This document shows, piece after piece, positions 6,114 to 14,563 of a stretch of 24,661 nucleotides of DNA (positions are counted from its first letter, which is position 1; the number at the start of each line of letters is the position of its first letter). The position numbers and the translations under genes were made by a program. The stretch is taken from positions 1 to 24,661 of the IMG/VR virus record IMGVR_UViG_3300010885_031651. One strand, given 5' to 3'. The DNA comes from a virus. The notes beneath the pieces are model-generated. The model was given only the letters and a program-made list of their open reading frames with translations. It was not told the DNA's origin and searched no databases.

Positions 6114-6773
6114 TTAAAAAGTTGAACCCTTTTCAAATGCAACCCAATATTCTATTTCTCGTCCAGCCCAATGGGAAATACCCTTAGAACTAATCTTAAT
6201 ATCGTAGTTATCACTCATAATCTTAATAACATTTTCAAGCTTAAAGATAACTAGAAATGTCTTATCTGTTGAACCAAAATTAATGTTAAAAACATCACCA
6301 GTTGATTCTTTACTATTACCAGCCTGAATAGAAACATTGGTACCATCACCAACGATTGAAATTTCTGGCATTCCAAGAGTACTACAGGCTCTAATAATTT
6401 CCTTGAGAATTTGATCACTAATAGTTAAAGAAACATCAACTGAAGGTAAGGTTAGTTCTTTCTCTGGAGGTGTTTTAATAGTTGCTTCGCTTGCATATGT
6501 ATAATTGAGGCTTGATCCATTTGATCCAACAATTTTTACAAAGTTATCATTGAAATCTAAATCAGGTTCGTTAATAAGTGACATTGAACCAAGGAACCTA
6601 GAAAGATCATAGATAGCGAAACGCTTTGTAAAGTTTGTATCTACCTTTGCCTTTGCGAGAACTGTCTTTGTTGGGGAGATTGTACTAACGACATTTCCTT
6701 CCTTGAAAAGGATAGAAGGATTGATTGTGGAAAAGTTTTTCAGTACATTCAAAGTTTTTGCTTCAAGTTTCAT
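6114..6773 (-). CDS. 45: Sliding clamp gp45
   Basis: This 219-residue protein starts MKLEAKTLNVLKNFSTINPS, very like T4 gp45 (228 aa), and keeps the FAIYDLSRFLGSMSLI segment (52-67) that matches IYDLNGFLGILSLV in T4. The trimeric ring tethers polymerase gp43 to DNA and, with gp33 and gp55, activates late transcription, so it links this block with gp55 elsewhere in the window. GGAG is 7 bases before the ATG. The leader shares the 9-mer ATTATGGAG with gene 44, a plausible RegA site. It lies 33 bases after the accessory operon and could be read through from it. Confidence 0.95.
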   Translation of the reverse strand: MKLEAKTLNVLKNFSTINPSILFKEGNVVSTISPTKTVLAKAKVDTNFTKRFAIYDLSRFLGSMSLINEPDLDFNDNFVKIVGSNGSSLNYTYASEATIKTPPEKELTLPSVDVSLTISDQILKEIIRACSTLGMPEISIVGDGTNVSIQAGNSKESTGDVFNINFGSTDKTFLVIFKLENVIKIMSDNYDIKISSKGISHWAGREIEYWVAFEKGSTF

Positions 6774-7655: not shown

Positions 7656-8059
7656 TATTTACCATCCTTATAATGATCCACATACAAACACATTAATGTG
7701 TAATGTAATGCTTTTAGCAAGTCAGCTTTATTGCTGCCATTTTTCTTACCGTATCGCCAAAGATATTTGAGAGATGTGTTTCGAAATGTAGGTGTTGAAT
7801 CACCAAGAGCAATCCACGCATCAAAACATTCTATACTCTGCTCTTCAGTCTTATAGTGTTCACTGTAAGTCTTATCTATATAGGCTTTGAAGTCAGCAAT
7901 AATCTGATCTTCAGCATATTTATAATCAATATTTTGAGAATGCGCTCCCTGTGTGATTAGAACAGTAGGAGTTTCTGATTCTTGTAATTTATCAGTGATA
8001 CTACCATAGTTTGGAAAGTTTGCACTAATAATTGTTGACCCCGTCATATTATTTTCCAT
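7655..8059 (-). CDS. DUF3310-like protein
   Basis: In this 134-residue protein the last third carries FRNTSLKYLWRYGKKNGS (91-108) followed by KADLLKALHYTL (110-121), the pattern of DUF3310 proteins, which in other phages are associated with nucleotide metabolism. The N-terminal half is unrecognised. GGAGG lies 6 bases before the chosen ATG; a second in-frame ATG is four codons later. It overlaps the kinase gene by 11 bases and the glycosyltransferase start as TAATG. Being inside the operon, it may handle a modified nucleotide or bind modified DNA, but this is inference. Confidence 0.65.
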   Translation of the reverse strand: MENNMTGSTIISANFPNYGSITDKLQESETPTVLITQGAHSQNIDYKYAEDQIIADFKAYIDKTYSEHYKTEEQSIECFDAWIALGDSTPTFRNTSLKYLWRYGKKNGSNKADLLKALHYTLMCLYVDHYKDGK

Positions 8060-8588
8060 TTATAGCCTCCAAAATTTCATTGTATATTTTGTTTTGCTCT
8101 TCATAGGTATTATTGTCAATACTTTTAATATTGAACATCAACATCATGTTTGTAAGAATATTGTTGATCTTACTTTCTCTGCCCTGTAACCAAGTTTTGT
8201 CTTGATTACTACCACGTAGCTTGTATCTTTCTTCACGAACGGATTCATTGGTCTTTAAATGAAAGATTTGTAACTCATAATTTTCAAGACAGTGTTCTAA
8301 GAATGACGAGGTAAATAAACGATCACCTTCAAATAATATTTTACTCTCTTTTGGTAAAGAAGCAAGGAATTTTATTGCTTCTGGTTGAACTGCCATGCTC
8401 ATTCTATCAGTACCAGAAAACACTTCACCTTCTTCATATTTGCCAAGAATGTAAATGTTATTTTTTTGCAGATAAGGAACTAATTTATATTGATTGTACT
8501 TTGGTTCAACACTATAATGTTCAAGTATTCGTTTCATCAGCGTTGATTTACCGCTGCCTGGATTACCACCAATAGCAATAATTCTCAT
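8049..8588 (-). CDS. P-loop kinase, candidate 5-hydroxymethylpyrimidine DNA kinase
   Basis: The 179-residue protein has an N-terminal Walker A GGNPGSGKST (7-16), a Walker-B-like ILFEGDRLF region near the middle and an arginine-rich lid, REERYKLRG, followed by WLQGRESKINNI. The GR.(S/T)KI.NI motif recalls the P-loop kinases predicted and partly shown to phosphorylate 5-hydroxymethyluracil in phage DNA; this comparison is from memory. Its neighbours, a TET/JBP oxygenase and an amino acid:DNA transferase-like protein, fit that role: phosphorylation would turn the hydroxymethyl into a leaving group. Its ribosome site GAGGAG is inside the end of the upstream gene (TAATG junction). A nucleotide monophosphate kinase is the main alternative. 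Confidence 0.72.
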   Translation of the reverse strand: MRIIAIGGNPGSGKSTLMKRILEHYSVEPKYNQYKLVPYLQKNNIYILGKYEEGEVFSGTDRMSMAVQPEAIKFLASLPKESKILFEGDRLFTSSFLEHCLENYELQIFHLKTNESVREERYKLRGSNQDKTWLQGRESKINNILTNMMLMFNIKSIDNNTYEEQNKIYNEILEAINGK

Positions 8589-9574
8589 TAAAAAAACTCC
8601 TCAAGACCAATTTTTTTATTCTCAAATAACCCTGTAGCATCTAATACATTTTCATTCATGTACAATTCCATTTTACTATTTTCTATCTTATTAGTCAACA
8701 GTTTATTATTGAGAGTTTCTTTTCTAGCATCCCACATTGGTTGCCAGTCAATACCAACCCAACTATCACTTTCACACTTGGCAATCTCTTCAGCTTGACG
8801 ATCGAGGTAGTATCCAAGATATCTGCCTTTCGATTTACGGAACAATTTCTTGAATGAACACAAGCAGGTTTCCATATCAAAGTAATCAGTGTTAGGAAAT
8901 TTTTGTTTTACTTCTTGGAGAATATAATACGCTTGACCATCAATATGATTCAATTGTATGTCTGTGAGTTTTTGATCATACCAATCATCAAGACCAAGTG
9001 CTAACAACAGTCCATTACGATGAGAACGAGAACCATCATGATCATCTAGCATCAGGTTGGTTGGTTCAATAGGAAGATCACAACACTGCTTGAGTGTTTG
9101 GAGATAGAACCAAGTTGAGTAGCGACCAAATTTGTGGAACTTGGTTTTTACTTCTGGCCAGAGACGTTCGAAGTTTTCTGTCGGCGAACCGACAAGGAAC
9201 GGCGCAAAAGCTTCACGTTGAGATCTATCTCCGACCCAATGTTTGTAACTTTCAAACTGGGCTGGTAGATGACCTTTGTTCCACTTGGTATCGGTTTGAT
9301 ACCTGAGCCGCTTGTAATTGTTATTGTTCCACTCGCGGAGTCGCTCGACCCCGACAAGTTCCATGTCAGGAAACTCATTCCAAACCACCCATGTTGTCGG
9401 AAGATAATACGTTGTCCCGTAGATCCAAGATATCCAGAGTTTTTGTTCTCTGTTATGCTCGAACCTACGAAACAAGTAATTGGTCATGAATATCGCTGGA
9501 TCACAATCCTTGATGGAAAGCGACCAGCGATACCAGTTTATGAAGTCTTGCTTACGCTGCAATTTGTTGTTCAT
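8588..9574 (-). CDS. Amino acid:DNA transferase-like protein (ADDT/AADT family)
   Basis: At 328 residues this looks like the family predicted to attach amino acids or amines to phosphorylated hydroxymethylpyrimidines in phage DNA. Supporting segments are FINWYRWSLSIKD (11-23), YLFRRFEHNREQKLWISW (33-50), GRYSTWFYLQTL (150-161) and LDDHDGSRSHRNGLL (176-190), plus ETCLCSFKKLFRKSKGRYLG (235-254). Family recognition is from memory and should be confirmed. I start at the ATG giving MNNKLQRKQ; an upstream in-frame TTG would add six residues. No clear ribosome site is present, and it overlaps the preceding gene by 23 bases, suggesting translational coupling. The substrate amine cannot be read from the sequence. 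Confidence 0.68.
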   Translation of the reverse strand: MNNKLQRKQDFINWYRWSLSIKDCDPAIFMTNYLFRRFEHNREQKLWISWIYGTTYYLPTTWVVWNEFPDMELVGVERLREWNNNNYKRLRYQTDTKWNKGHLPAQFESYKHWVGDRSQREAFAPFLVGSPTENFERLWPEVKTKFHKFGRYSTWFYLQTLKQCCDLPIEPTNLMLDDHDGSRSHRNGLLLALGLDDWYDQKLTDIQLNHIDGQAYYILQEVKQKFPNTDYFDMETCLCSFKKLFRKSKGRYLGYYLDRQAEEIAKCESDSWVGIDWQPMWDARKETLNNKLLTNKIENSKMELYMNENVLDATGLFENKKIGLEEFF

Positions 9575-11003
9575 CAAACAGCATATTGACAATGTTCTTT
9601 ATCATATTACCCTTTCTTGTAGTATCATAACGAGCTGGCAAAGAAACGATAAAAACTTTATAGCCATTATGTTTACCAACAAATGGAACATATCCATTAA
9701 TAGCTTTAGACTTATCAGGAAAGAAATTATAGAAAGCGAAATTGTTTTTTACCATTTCAAAAATTTCACTTTCTCTGTTTTCAGTTTTAGTTTGTGTATG
9801 GTATGCAAGAATAACTTCAGCATTTTTTCCTTGCGAAGCTCCAGTACTACCGAAATAGTTAGCTGGATTAGAGATTGCATCTCGATGAAGGCTAGAGAAA
9901 GAAGATTTACTAACTTCTGATTTAGGGAATCGCATTTTAACCTGATGAGAGAACTTATCAATCAACTTGTTAGCTGCATAATTTACCCAGTTATCACCCT
10001 TGATTTCATCTTCTTCGTACTTTTCTTTATACGCCTTAAGATTTTGAGCCAAAGCCTTTGCACTAAACTTTCTATAATAAAGAGCTTTGAAGCATTCACA
10101 AAAATCTTCAAATGATTCTTCAAATAGTTCTTTATGATCCATATGAAAAATATGGATATGAGTTGGTAACTCTTTCTTTGGATCCTGAGCTTTGTTATAT
10201 TTTTCAGGAATGTTTCGAGCTGAAGCGTAATTTCTCATTAGATAATTACTATCATTGAACACGCTCGATTTGAATCGAACCACAGGAACTGTTGGCCAAA
10301 TTTGACATTGTTCAACAGCATGCACAGTTGTTGTGCCATCCAAACGCATTTCTCTGCCATCTGGATATTCAATGATTGTACAAGGTTCAACTTTTCGAAC
10401 TGCTGCAATAGGATCGCGCATCATAGACTCAGCGACCTTATCGACTTCTCGAGGGTCAATATGGTTTTCAGTAACCTGAAGAAACTCCATCTTGGTCATA
10501 CGATCAACAGGCTCGTAAGTTACCTTATGAATAACTTTTTCAGGAGTGTCCAGTTGAACAACAACTGCTGATTGAACTTCTTTAGCCAATTTCTCAATAT
10601 ATAAATTAAGTTCTTCATATTTCTCAACAGAATATTTCTCTGGAAAAATATTATGAATGATCATATTCTCACCAACAATATAATCCTTTTCTTCAAGGAT
10701 ATTTTGACGAGCTCCACCACGATGTCCACCACCGCTGTTTTTATTGTAAAGATCAATCGCATTATTTTTCGCAAGATTGATCAAATATGTTTCAAGAGCA
10801 TGAGCCTTTTCTTTGCTTTCTCCCTTATAAACAATGTATTCGTCGATAAAATTATCTTCAATAGCTTTTTGAAGAAAGATGCTAGATGAAGAATGTGTGT
10901 ATGATTTGCTACCAACTTGGTGATGCAAACCAATATAAAAACAATTGATAGACTTATTATGAAGGATGTATACGTACCAGTAGTTCGGTTCAAAGCTTAA
11001 CAT
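9552..11003 (-). CDS. GIY-YIG nuclease-like domain fused to ParB-like domain
   Basis: The first 97 residues resemble a GIY-YIG nuclease: YVYILHN (10-16), CFYIG (21-25), Glu71 in ALETYLI and LYN..SGGGHRGG (86-97), in the subtype where SYTHSSSSIFLQKAIED replaces the usual arginine region. A linker follows, then a ParB-like segment centred on DGREMRLDGTTTVHAV (215-230), with DGTTT at the place ParB family members carry DG.HR. The last 230 residues are mainly helical and unrecognised. ParB-like proteins are often encoded beside predicted phage DNA modification enzymes. A role in targeting DNA or cutting unmodified DNA is inference; the GIY-YIG module could also be a captured homing nuclease. Total length is 483 residues. 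Confidence 0.65.
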   Translation of the reverse strand: MLSFEPNYWYVYILHNKSINCFYIGLHHQVGSKSYTHSSSSIFLQKAIEDNFIDEYIVYKGESKEKAHALETYLINLAKNNAIDLYNKNSGGGHRGGARQNILEEKDYIVGENMIIHNIFPEKYSVEKYEELNLYIEKLAKEVQSAVVVQLDTPEKVIHKVTYEPVDRMTKMEFLQVTENHIDPREVDKVAESMMRDPIAAVRKVEPCTIIEYPDGREMRLDGTTTVHAVEQCQIWPTVPVVRFKSSVFNDSNYLMRNYASARNIPEKYNKAQDPKKELPTHIHIFHMDHKELFEESFEDFCECFKALYYRKFSAKALAQNLKAYKEKYEEDEIKGDNWVNYAANKLIDKFSHQVKMRFPKSEVSKSSFSSLHRDAISNPANYFGSTGASQGKNAEVILAYHTQTKTENRESEIFEMVKNNFAFYNFFPDKSKAINGYVPFVGKHNGYKVFIVSLPARYDTTRKGNMIKNIVNMLFDEQQIAA

Positions 11004-11021: not shown

Positions 11022-11645
11022 TCATATTTGTATAGAGCGAGATTGTGTGATTGTTAAGAACTCTTTATAACGCGATGGATGACCAAAGTCAAATTCATCA
11101 TGTTTCTTGACTTTTTTAGCTATCCACTTCAATTTTGCATTACGAAGTTCTTGTGGATATTTGTTCAATATTTCATTAGCAGACAGGGTTTGTATCTCTC
11201 TAAAACATTCTACACCTCTTTCATTTATAGGAAGATCACAGAACATGGAATGACTAATGGTTGTACCCCAATAAGTCATTCCAAGTTTATCGTAGAAACC
11301 AAGAGCAGACTGATTGCAATCTAGACGAATGCTCGTAGCTCCTGCTTCAACTGCTTCGAGGATGTTACGGTGCAACATTTCTCTAGCAGAACCTTTACCA
11401 CGACCTGGAGTCGGAGTAAAAATATTAGAAATGAAAAGAACTTTGGACTTAGCTTGACCAGAGATCTTCATAAAACAAACGGAAAGTATCTCTTCGTTTT
11501 CCTCTAACACTCTAGGTGGCCAAGTATCCCAAGCTTTCATAAAGTCCCACATCCCCATGGCTACTTTAGAGAACTTCTGGTCTTTTTCAACCAGAGTATT
11601 ATGATAGCTTAAATATTCGGTTTTGTCAAGCGTTTTATAGATCAT
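11022..11645 (-). CDS. GNAT-family acetyltransferase
   Basis: The 207-residue protein has the acetyl-CoA pyrophosphate loop GRGKGSAREML (81-91) after a beta-strand, and the C-terminal GNAT signature NQSALGFYDKLGMTYWGT (111-128). About 70 residues follow beyond the GNAT core, basic and helical. Its ATG overlaps the amidoligase stop as ATGA, indicating translational coupling. In this operon it could acylate a free amine that an earlier step installed on a base, or modify a small molecule before transfer to DNA. Acetylation of a host protein is the alternative. Sequence alone does not show the acceptor. Confidence 0.83.
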   Translation of the reverse strand: MIYKTLDKTEYLSYHNTLVEKDQKFSKVAMGMWDFMKAWDTWPPRVLEENEEILSVCFMKISGQAKSKVLFISNIFTPTPGRGKGSAREMLHRNILEAVEAGATSIRLDCNQSALGFYDKLGMTYWGTTISHSMFCDLPINERGVECFREIQTLSANEILNKYPQELRNAKLKWIAKKVKKHDEFDFGHPSRYKEFLTITQSRSIQI

Positions 11646-12562
11646 ACTGAAAGAAATTTACGAGACTTGCCGAGCTTGTTAAGACCAAGCTTCTCGGCTG
11701 TTTCATCATCAAGGTTACGGTCAGTACGTTCATGTTTGGTCTTTTCCCAACCAAGATACATTTCATGATCATATTCAAAAGGCGGGAACTTGTAATCGTT
11801 TTGAAGGAACAATTCCTGAACATCAGGACCATCGTTCAAAGCAGCATCAATCCAATCAGTTGCAAAACGGAAACAATCTGTAATCTCTTTACGATCTATC
11901 GAACTACGGAAACAACGAAACTCGATTGTCTTTGAGTTCTTGAGTGCATAGGTATGAATACCATAGCGAAATGGACGAGACTTCGTCTTAGCATCTTTAC
12001 CACAACAATGCACACGGATCCAATCATCAAAATCAACAGGTACAGTTGCAAGATTAGTTCCAAGCCAATCAGGCATAATACGCCCACCATCGTGCTTAAG
12101 ATAAGTTTTGGCAGTCTTTGTCATATCCATGTTAGGCATAACATGAAACTGATAGCAACGATCAATAGTCATGTGCTGATTGTCACGAAGATATCGTGAA
12201 AGTCTCTTCAAAGCATCAATGTCTTCAGTCAACCCTGGAACATGGATATGAAGATGACCATGATTAACACATCCAGCAGTAGGAGGAGTACCATGCTCAA
12301 CGAACATATCATGAAGTTTCATAATGTTATCAACCTGTTCTTCCATAGTCTTTGTTGGCTTTGTATTAATCTCACCACCAACAGGAGGGTTCACTCCCTT
12401 TGGATCCGAGCCGATACCACGATAAGGTTCGCGAAGATTGATAATATCAGTTTCACAAAATTCCCAAGCTCCAAGCTCTGGAGGAATTGGCATGTTACGA
12501 TCAATATCACCCCACTCGATTTCGAAACCATAGGTGAAGGTGTTTCTATCATATTTGTTCAT
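11642..12562 (-). CDS. Amidoligase-family ATP-dependent carboxylate-amine ligase
   Basis: This 306-residue protein shows the ordered motifs of the amidoligase_2 family, which has a glutamine-synthetase-like fold: YGFEIEW (11-17), GGEINTKPT (62-70), NHGHLHIHV (100-108) and TIEFRCFRSS (212-221). The acidic and histidine residues would bind Mg-ATP. Family members are predicted to join a carboxylate to an amine. It overlaps a class II glutamine amidotransferase by ATGA at its start and a GNAT gene by ATGA at its end. I infer that it makes or extends an amide-linked group destined for the modified base. A protein-modifying ligase cannot be excluded. The C-terminal tail (about 275-306) is charged and unrecognised. 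Confidence 0.8.
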   Translation of the reverse strand: MNKYDRNTFTYGFEIEWGDIDRNMPIPPELGAWEFCETDIINLREPYRGIGSDPKGVNPPVGGEINTKPTKTMEEQVDNIMKLHDMFVEHGTPPTAGCVNHGHLHIHVPGLTEDIDALKRLSRYLRDNQHMTIDRCYQFHVMPNMDMTKTAKTYLKHDGGRIMPDWLGTNLATVPVDFDDWIRVHCCGKDAKTKSRPFRYGIHTYALKNSKTIEFRCFRSSIDRKEITDCFRFATDWIDAALNDGPDVQELFLQNDYKFPPFEYDHEMYLGWEKTKHERTDRNLDDETAEKLGLNKLGKSRKFLSV

Positions 12563-13245
12563 TGCAAATCCTCGGCGTTTGAATTTCTTAAAATATCATG
12601 AACAGCGTTCATTTGGAAATGTTCAACAGTATACATAGTAAGCATACTAGTTTTTTGAATATTAGTCAAGTTAGATCTTTTGGCAATATCTTCAGTAGAC
12701 GTAAATATTATATGATTCATATCATAAGCATAATATAATGGACGCTCTGCATTTCGAAAAGCTACAATTCTTTTATCATCATACAAAGCACAAACTGCCA
12801 TAGAAGCAGGTTCAAAATGCTGAAGAGGATTTACATCTTCTTCCATCGCTCGCAAAACAAGCTCTGAGTCGTTTGAGGTTTCTGTTCTGAGTTTGTATTT
12901 GTCTTCCCAAGTTTCAGGCGGTTCTTGAGATATGACACCATTATGGGCAATAGATAGTTTATCACTAGACATAGGCTGATTATAACGCAGATCAGAAGTT
13001 GAATATCTAATGTGCCCAATACAGTAGAGATTTCCATCTTCATTTCTCCATTCGTTTAGATCCTGCTTCATAATAAACTCATTAGCAGGGATAGGATCTT
13101 TGATTGTATTTACACGACCGTTTTTGACATAAGAAACACCAGTCGCATGCTTACCACGGATCATTGATTGAATGAAGAGACTACGAACTAAATCGTAGTC
13201 TCCCTCATTGAAGTTTTTAATGGCAATGCCAAGAACACCACACAT
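12559..13245 (-). CDS. Class II glutamine amidotransferase (Ntn hydrolase)
   Basis: The start codon is followed directly by Cys2, the nucleophile once Met1 is removed. The family landmarks follow in order: GKHATGVSY (31-39), GHIRYST (77-83), AHNGVI (100-105) and ETSNDSE (122-128). At 228 residues it is a stand-alone glutaminase domain without a synthetase. It would release ammonia from glutamine. The next gene, overlapping by ATGA, is the amidoligase, a natural acceptor for that ammonia; the preceding gene is the TET/JBP oxygenase (TAATG junction). Production of an amide or amine for DNA modification is inferred from this arrangement. Confidence 0.9.
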   Translation of the reverse strand: MCGVLGIAIKNFNEGDYDLVRSLFIQSMIRGKHATGVSYVKNGRVNTIKDPIPANEFIMKQDLNEWRNEDGNLYCIGHIRYSTSDLRYNQPMSSDKLSIAHNGVISQEPPETWEDKYKLRTETSNDSELVLRAMEEDVNPLQHFEPASMAVCALYDDKRIVAFRNAERPLYYAYDMNHIIFTSTEDIAKRSNLTNIQKTSMLTMYTVEHFQMNAVHDILRNSNAEDLQ

Positions 13246-14546
13246 TAAGAGAAGAAATCCTCTAAGCTAGATACAGTTTCAGCCATATATGGATCTTGCA
13301 TATTATGAGTTGACATATAGTCATACCATTCCTGTTCATGCCACATATCAGCATTTACACCATTCCAAAGAGGACGCCAGTACTTGTGTTCTTTGTTTAA
13401 ACGTCTCTCGTCAATATATTGTTTACGTAGCTGTTCATAATCCCATGATTTAAGATCGACCATTTTTTCGCGAAAATAAGCAACAATAGTCATACGGTCA
13501 TTGTTGTCGCCAATAAGTTCATCATTAGCATGAATACCGCCATGATTATTTACAAGCAACATATCTCCTGGCTCAAGCTTTACAGCAATGCGAAACTCAG
13601 GAAGAATAAATTCAGCGCCTTCCCAACCTTTGCCAAGAGCACAAATGTTAGAAAACCCTTCATGAAGATCTCCAGCATCTCGATGACATGCAGTACGCCA
13701 GTTATGATTTACAGTAAGAGTAGTAAACACTGTTCTATCAATAAGAAAACGAGGATCAAGTTTATCAGCTTCTTTACGTTGATTGTTCCAACGAATAGGA
13801 AGCAATTCTTTAAACTGATCATTCAACTTATTGAGAAATGGATATGACTCAGTAAAATCTTCTGGATGTTTTTCAGTATAAGAAGCTGCACGACCATAAG
13901 GAATACGAGGATAGCGATCAAAATATCCAGCAATACCAGACATAACTGACTGTGCATAATTTGTTTCAGAAATATAATTATTGATTACATATTCTGCTTC
14001 TTCAATTTGCTCTTCGCGAGACATATTATGAAGACCATTGACCCACTTATCAAACCAACCATGATATTCAGGATACTTCTTGGTTACTTCAGAACGTAAC
14101 CAAACCTGACCACGTGTTTCTTCTTTCGAAGAAATTTTATTACTTGTACGAATTGTGTCAATAGTAGTTCCATCATCAAAAGTATTGATTGGTCTTGCAA
14201 GAAACGAAAGAATTTCAAGATGTTCGGCAGTAACCCAATCGCGATTACCACGACCTTCCTGACCAAGTTGATCACCACGAGGACCAGCAGCCATACCACG
14301 GTTCTGTGATTCAGTTGCTGCATTACGCAAACCCTGATAACAACGACGACGTTCTTCGTCAGTAAATACACCCTTACGAAATTTGAAAATAATATTTTCT
14401 TCTGATTTCAAATTAGAATCAATAGGATCTTCTGCATAAAGATCGCAATCTTCTGTGATGATACGATCTGTATATTCAGCACAAGTAATGAATGTACCTA
14501 AAGTTTCTTCTGAATCTATCTTTTTTCTGACTAATACTTCTATCAT
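13245..14546 (-). CDS. TET/JBP-like 2-oxoglutarate/Fe(II) dioxygenase
   Basis: This 433-residue protein carries a double-stranded beta-helix oxygenase domain in its second half. NHNWRTACHRDAGDLHEG (280-297) supplies the HxD iron ligands H288 and D290; GWEGAEFILPEF (307-318) and EPGDMLLVNNHGGIHAND (325-342) follow with distal ligand H339; DRMTIVAYFRE (350-360) gives the arginine for 2-oxoglutarate. The layout resembles TET/JBP enzymes, which oxidise the 5-methyl of thymine or 5-methylcytosine in DNA. GGAGG lies 5 bases before the chosen ATG; an in-frame TTG 12 bases earlier would include it. It is the first gene of the coupled operon and probably makes the initial hydroxymethyl base. No cytosine methyltransferase is seen in the window. 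Confidence 0.85.
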   Translation of the reverse strand: MIEVLVRKKIDSEETLGTFITCAEYTDRIITEDCDLYAEDPIDSNLKSEENIIFKFRKGVFTDEERRRCYQGLRNAATESQNRGMAAGPRGDQLGQEGRGNRDWVTAEHLEILSFLARPINTFDDGTTIDTIRTSNKISSKEETRGQVWLRSEVTKKYPEYHGWFDKWVNGLHNMSREEQIEEAEYVINNYISETNYAQSVMSGIAGYFDRYPRIPYGRAASYTEKHPEDFTESYPFLNKLNDQFKELLPIRWNNQRKEADKLDPRFLIDRTVFTTLTVNHNWRTACHRDAGDLHEGFSNICALGKGWEGAEFILPEFRIAVKLEPGDMLLVNNHGGIHANDELIGDNNDRMTIVAYFREKMVDLKSWDYEQLRKQYIDERRLNKEHKYWRPLWNGVNADMWHEQEWYDYMSTHNMQDPYMAETVSSLEDFFS

Positions 14547-14563
14547 CTTTGCCTCCAATAATA

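Follow-up and report, generated by a model that had tools for sequence, protein, structure and literature searches.

A fusion gene within a modification operon

The window, that is, the whole stretch of DNA analyzed here, is a 24,661-b record from an uncultured T4-like virus. An open frame on its minus strand (9552-11003) encodes a 483-aa protein that joins a GIY-YIG nuclease domain to a ParB-like domain, exactly as the original prediction placed it, and profiles and structure models agree on this architecture. Read 5′ to 3′ on the minus strand, the fusion is preceded by a MazG-like gene, a TET/JBP-type dioxygenase (13245-14558; PF12851 (Tet_JBP), 2.7e-19), a class II glutamine amidotransferase (12559-13245; PF13522 (GATase_6), 6.5e-12), an amidoligase-like protein (11642-12562; PF12224, a weak match at 0.012, conserved in relatives) and a GNAT acetyltransferase (11022-11645; PF00583, 2.4e-5). 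It is followed by an ADDT amino acid:DNA transferase (8588-9592; PF18724, 3.6e-24), a P-loop nucleotide kinase (8049-8588; PF18751, 3.5e-12), which is likely the base kinase of the pathway, a DUF3310 gene, a GT-like gene, a clamp gene and a clamp loader gene. The GNAT and ADDT genes form the upstream and downstream borders of what we hereafter refer to as the slot, and the 3′ end of the slot gene overlaps the first codons of ADDT. Based on these families, we infer that the gene set encodes a DNA-base hypermodification pathway, in keeping with the modification operon that had been predicted around the fusion.

A search for a C5-cytosine methyltransferase (PF00145) across 13 related records (52-173 kb) found none, and we did not retain 5-methylcytosine as the presumed TET substrate; the modified base may derive from thymine or from cytosine. 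Because no such enzyme lies beside these TET genes, the substrate of TET may be thymine, or else methyl groups that originate elsewhere. We also observed that the chemistry following TET is itself a swapped cassette. The amidotransferase-amidoligase-GNAT-ADDT block is replaced in many relatives (L003-L006, L008, L010-L016 and others), frequently by a gene for a 258-263-aa protein, alone or with a diverged ADDT. In two loci (L190:3616-4263 and L192:2396-3043), an additional GIY-YIG gene of the ordinary homing type (215 aa, with a NUMOD-like tail by eye) lies between ADDT and the kinase; it was not seen at this place in the related L191 and L193.

The nuclease domain and the ParB-fold domain

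The GIY-YIG domain is of the Seg/I-TevI type and spans residues 8-98 (10710-10982, minus strand). PF01541 matches residues 8-80 of the window protein with E=3.2e-4 and 21.4 bits, which is 1.2 below the curated cut-off of 22.6, and a 69% identical relative (L084) scores above it (28.2 bits, 2.3e-6). Relatives match the homing-endonuclease family phrog_314 (10/30 members; best 7.7e-11) and the PADLOC HEase model (2.9e-6); among the other PADLOC defence models, none matched except one weak Cas13Cterm. We built an AlphaFold2 model of the window protein (8 sequences, pLDDT 81) and a second one of the relative L096 (30 sequences, pLDDT 86). The former matches Seg/GIY-YIG proteins, and also ParB-like ones, among the BFVD viral models, and the latter matches the I-TevI catalytic domain (1ln0) with Z 7.1 and 2.6 Å over 81 residues.

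The window protein carries Y12, YIG at 23-25, H27, Y35, S38, E71, Y86-N87 and GGG at 91-93, including the two tyrosines (Y12 and Y23), the metal-binding glutamate (E71) and the C-terminal asparagine (N87) of the superfamily. Fold, profile and motif residues together make it a member of the GIY-YIG superfamily. The same active-site residues are present in T6 SegE and in a further two phage homing enzymes; in the sequence alignment, neither the window protein nor any of these three has an arginine at the positions aligned to the helix 1 arginine of I-TevI-type enzymes. This conservation holds across relatives down to about 22% identity: Glu71 (codon at 10791-10793), Tyr35, Ser38 and the glycine of YIG are invariant in 35/35 representatives, Tyr12 and Tyr86-Asn87 are kept in 34/35, and position 27 is His, Lys or Arg in 33/35. 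The YIG tyrosine is more variable (Tyr in 27, Asn in six, Val in two), and some members may be inactive given its loss in 8/35. By mean identity, the GIY domain is the best conserved part (61%), followed by the ParB (53%), helical (47%) and C-terminal (46%) parts. The gene is under purifying selection, with dN/dS of 0.04-0.16 in comparable pairs, dS being saturated in several.

The position usually taken by a NUMOD/HTH tail, for which Pfam found no match in 30 members, is occupied by a ParB/sulfiredoxin-fold domain (residues 158-269; 10197-10532, minus strand). No family model in the searched libraries matches this part of the window protein, and a PDB sequence search with the family profile returned nothing useful. 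Among 30 family members, 17 match phrog_8071 ('ParB-like'; best 9e-9) and three match PF02195. Foldseek matched the window model to ParB/Noc (2e-4) and to sulfiredoxins; residues 158-268 superpose on ParB-CDP (6sdk) with Z 9.8 and 2.7 Å over 96 residues, and the L096 model on KorB (8qa9) with Z 10.6 over 138 residues. Structure prediction, one of the checks that had been proposed for the fusion, thus returns both folds, and the fusion is confirmed as real, far beyond chance.

The DG box reads DGTTT at residues 222-226 (10326-10340), where ParB/Srx relatives have DGxHR; this substitution had been noted in the original prediction and extends through the close family as DGT[TS]T. The DG pair is kept in nearly all relatives, and the histidine is retained in half of the members (DGNHT type). 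The following arginine is Thr in 25/34 and is kept in 9/34. The arginine of a QxR motif is kept in 31/34 and lost only in the clade of the window (QVT/QIT; QVT at residues 176-178, 10470-10478, in the window protein). The DGTTT box, together with the Thr-for-Arg exchange in 25/34, indicates a fold-level ParB/Srx relative, not a canonical ParB CTPase. From these motifs, the altered nucleotide use suggested earlier for the window protein appears likely, and it probably extends to the family.

A helical part (residues 270-340; 9984-10196), into which the KorB/ParB match of the relative reaches, links this domain to a C-terminal alpha/beta domain (residues 341-483; 9555-9983) defined from the model. 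The latter has no convincing structural relative, with only weak AAA+/MoaA-like matches (Z under 5) and, in NCBIfam, only a weak SbnI match for one relative. Members of the GIY-ParB family range in length from 420 to 510 aa. Pfam scans found neither DUF262 nor DUF1524 (HNH), the combination of GmrSD-type Type IV enzymes.

Occupancy, exchange and loss of the slot gene

The close relatives of the protein (L001, L007, L033, L063 and L082-L086) lie between GNAT and ADDT on all contigs that extend that far, and relatives down to about 22% identity hold this same place in diverse TET-amidoligase operons. To collect such operons, we used the amidoligase as a marker and obtained 80 loci, most of them new, as the best 80 of 272 matches, so that the sample leans towards the window. 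The slot survey covered 89 loci with both borders, which form 47 clusters by amidoligase at 95%. Within this sample (best 80 of 272 matches), a slot gene with a GIY part occurs in one or more members of 27/47 clusters (26 with GIY-ParB and one with GIY only); the slot is empty in 14 clusters, holds a ParB-like gene without GIY in four and holds another gene in two. The fusion therefore recurs in other TET-bearing phages, and a recent single insertion is ruled out, since many operons have the fusion in this slot and its N-terminal module is common to all close and many distant relatives there.

A GIY profile scores 35/42 slot-protein representatives, a count that is partly circular because the profile was built from family members; independent profiles agree. 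Alleles without the GIY domain occur at L043, L070, L129, L140 and L157, and the L043-type ParB-only protein compares weakly with the family ParB part (14.9% probability by profile comparison), with the DG motifs aligned. At L067 (11455-11910) and L069, the slot gene encodes a GIY domain only (151 aa), without the ParB part. At L121 (2289-3416), the slot holds an unrelated 375-aa protein that is PLP-dependent-enzyme-like by eye.

These data bear on the possibility that the protein is no nuclease in practice but a DndB-like or ParBc-like regulator or accessory of the pathway, its GIY-YIG domain only binding DNA. The ParB-only alleles, the loss of the YIG tyrosine in 8/35, the overlap of the slot gene with the ADDT start and the frequency of ParBc near other phage cytosine-modification genes (PMC12783734) would all fit such a role. 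However, the near-invariance of the catalytic Glu, the first Tyr and the Asn, the position of GIY as the most conserved domain and the 14/47 operon clusters with an empty slot argue against it, and we regard it as quite improbable.

The main clade stays inside the modification operon even where the surrounding gene order differs (L143-145, L159-161). Distant GIY-ParB genes were found away from any TET operon (L214:5926-7209, L217:5959-7200, L218:1020-2324, L219:2217-3521 and L220:3456-4850); their neighbors include, by eye, a helicase-like gene (L218) and hydroxylase-like genes (L214). A tblastn search of 50,697 phage records with the window protein gave no match even at 0.01, and no fusion is annotated nearby in the nearest TET-gene isolates (DLP_6, C48C1 and Cr30). 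A pattern scan of 84,980 bacterial and archaeal genomes, based on the B-type alignment and limited by its two short patterns, found no relative.

Comparison of closely related operons revealed that the slot content changes while the other operon proteins remain nearly the same. These other proteins are 97-100% identical in L144/L145, 89-100% in L164/L168 and 96-100% in L163/L164, and the slot proteins are 29%, 30% and 63% identical, respectively. In L152/L157 (97-100%), a GIY-ParB protein faces an unrelated ParB-only protein with no similarity. In L148/L151 (95-99%), BLAST detects no similarity between the slot proteins, that of L151 resembling, by eye, a very diverged GIY-ParB. The slot is empty in one member and occupied in the other in L047/L083 (83-99%) and L135/L146 (60-98%). 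Directly 5′ of the slot gene of L148, at 6395-6545, we noticed by eye a near-consensus sigma-70 promoter (TTGACA, TACAAT); the other allele, L151, is without such a sequence at that place.

The ends of the slot gene are the points at which DNA alignments between operons break off and restart. In the lineage of the window, the slot gene ends, with its last codons and its stop, in sequence that the empty L047 also has at its ADDT start (AAATTGCARCGTAARCAAGA). Some pairs show identity dips in the 300-600 bp beside the slot and 100% identity outside. Per 300 bp, L152/L157 are 95, 94, 100, 100 and 100% identical upstream and 94, 95, 100, 100 and 100% downstream; L144/L145 are without a flanking dip. 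Such dips are as recent replacement with co-transferred flanks (co-conversion) would leave them, and ordinary homologous recombination between divergent alleles would produce the same borders and dips.

Since near-identical operons carry divergent or unrelated slot genes and related ones carry none, the slot gene is optional, exchanged cargo of a fixed, hypervariable slot and not a required modification enzyme, a property that goes beyond the original prediction. The empty slots make it dispensable for modification, yet where present it is intact and under selection. A caveat to these swaps is metagenome assembly: every locus is an uncultured contig, and some swaps rest on single contigs (L144, L157, L151 and L168). 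The swaps could in part be artefacts in which a slot gene was assembled between the flanks of a different strain. We consider this very unlikely, as the same alleles occur on the same backbone in different samples (L143, L145; L152, L154, L156, L158), the breakpoints fall on gene ends, where a switch by the assembler would not be expected, and both alleles would still need to exist beside similar flanks.

A candidate exchangeable nuclease and its possible targets

We tentatively propose, at a little short of an even chance for the proposal as a whole, that the slot gene encodes an active endonuclease, carried as exchangeable slot cargo, that targets other DNA within the infected cell. The homing-type (Seg/I-TevI) GIY-YIG part would be the cutter, and the ParB-fold module would select or hold the DNA target. 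As an optional, exchangeable gene in one fixed slot of a phage hypermodification operon, it would mainly attack co-infecting related phage genomes whose slot is empty or holds a different allele, and would gain by competition and by copying through recombination, in the manner of intronless homing or marker exclusion. Its own genome may escape if it lacks the site or carries an altered version of it, or if hypermodification shields its DNA; by analogy to T4 endonuclease II, self-protection by base modification is plausible.

The proposed homing-type nuclease draws on the Seg/I-TevI-type domain, the residues shared with SegE, the I-TevI match and the homing-endonuclease profiles, and the occurrence of distant relatives away from the operon adds to it. 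Its activity is suggested by the near-invariant GIY residues, the conservation of GIY above all other parts and the dN/dS values, and its exchange by the slot replacements, empty slots, gene-end borders and flanking dips. The idea of a selfish nuclease joining the operon, which the original prediction had considered, also agrees with the swaps, with the slots found empty and with a catalytic domain of the Seg type. Several features argue against the proposal: the NUMOD/HTH tail usual in homing enzymes is replaced by the ParB and C-terminal parts, some slot alleles lack GIY and some members lack the YIG tyrosine, and the main clade, despite very large divergence, keeps to one slot in a single kind of operon. 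Such fidelity also fits a function tied to modification.

Among known systems, Seg proteins such as SegE offer a close comparison. In T4-like phages, seg and mob genes replace one another at one site and drive the exclusion of co-infecting relatives (PMC2988022). Seg proteins share with the fusion a GIY-YIG domain with VY, YIG, H, Y, S/T, E, YN and GG, and an intergenic slot whose optional gene is replaced at one site in related phages; the fusion likewise has empty-site counterparts at its fixed intergenic site (L047/L083, L135/L146 and others). However, Seg proteins measure about 200-250 aa and carry different DNA-binding tails, whereas the fusion has a ParB/Srx-fold and an alpha/beta domain, resides in a modification operon and is strongly site-bound over large divergence. 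A precedent for a homing-type GIY-YIG cutter that became a phage weapon, joined to a replicon-protein domain at a swapped locus, is Odn (Gp88) of ICP1 (PMC8263062). Odn is similarly a chimera that comes and goes by swapping at a single phage locus, but its GIY-YIG part is C-terminal and of the T5orf172 type, its other part is RepA_N, it targets satellite origins and it lies outside a modification operon.

The link to modification is also compatible with the self/non-self function suggested in the original prediction: a restriction-like nuclease would degrade host or competitor DNA without the hypermodified base of the operon, with the phage's own DNA immune and the ParB/Srx-fold part reading DNA or nucleotide state. 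The retention of the main clade in the operon under altered gene order is consistent with this. Related strategies are known: the GIY-YIG enzyme Endo II of T4 breaks down host DNA and spares modified T4 DNA (PMC1564403), modification-dependent GmrSD fuses a ParB/Srx-fold domain to a separate nuclease (PMC4619093), and the CMoRE/PD-T4-3 GIY-YIG nuclease, to which the L096 model has a weak structural match (Z 5.4), reads 5hmC (PMC12923530). On the other hand, virtually identical modification enzymes accompany different or GIY-less slot genes, and related operons have none, so that the nuclease is not required. Moreover, such frequent exchange of the targeting part would make little sense if self were marked by modification alone. 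We therefore consider this restriction-like role somewhat unlikely, and slightly favor the Seg-like over the Endo II-like reading.

The enzymes cited in its favor also differ from the fusion. The GmrSD/BrxU/SspE type (DUF262 + HNH) likewise joins a ParB/Srx fold with a DG motif to a separate nuclease, but that nuclease is HNH, the order is reversed, DGQQR is kept and the carriers are bacterial. T4 endonuclease II (DenA), which we liken by description, is a phage GIY-YIG nuclease whose phage modifies its own DNA; to our knowledge, it has no ParB domain. The ParBc proteins of phage CmoX/CmoY cytosine-modification operons similarly sit beside DNA-modification enzymes, but GIY-YIG is not reported for them and the modification chemistry is another. 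Their function in phage modification contexts is stated as unknown (PMC12783734). In the portion of the literature covered by full-text searches, we found no published GIY-YIG/ParB fusion of this kind, and ParB is not mentioned in the main text of a GIY-YIG phylogenomic survey.

The analysis defines a family for which we found no published description, with alleles of several GIY-ParB kinds, GIY only, ParB only and empty. Repeated exchange and loss at a fixed slot between near-identical phages suggest a weapon or selfish cutter directed against other DNA in the same cell. In an unlikely but more far-reaching form, interference would be coupled to modification: the operon would mark the phage DNA, and the swappable slot nuclease would destroy unmarked host, plasmid, satellite or rival-phage DNA. 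If true, this would amount to a mobile, phage-borne restriction-modification system whose specificity gene is replaced as a cassette, with the targeting parts exchanged through an arms race. Because the allele series lies in closely related phage backgrounds, two questions become testable, namely, the role of ParB-fold proteins in phage DNA-modification operons (PMC12783734) and whether homing-type nucleases have become modification-protected weapons. The alleles could also supply new nucleases and targeting modules.
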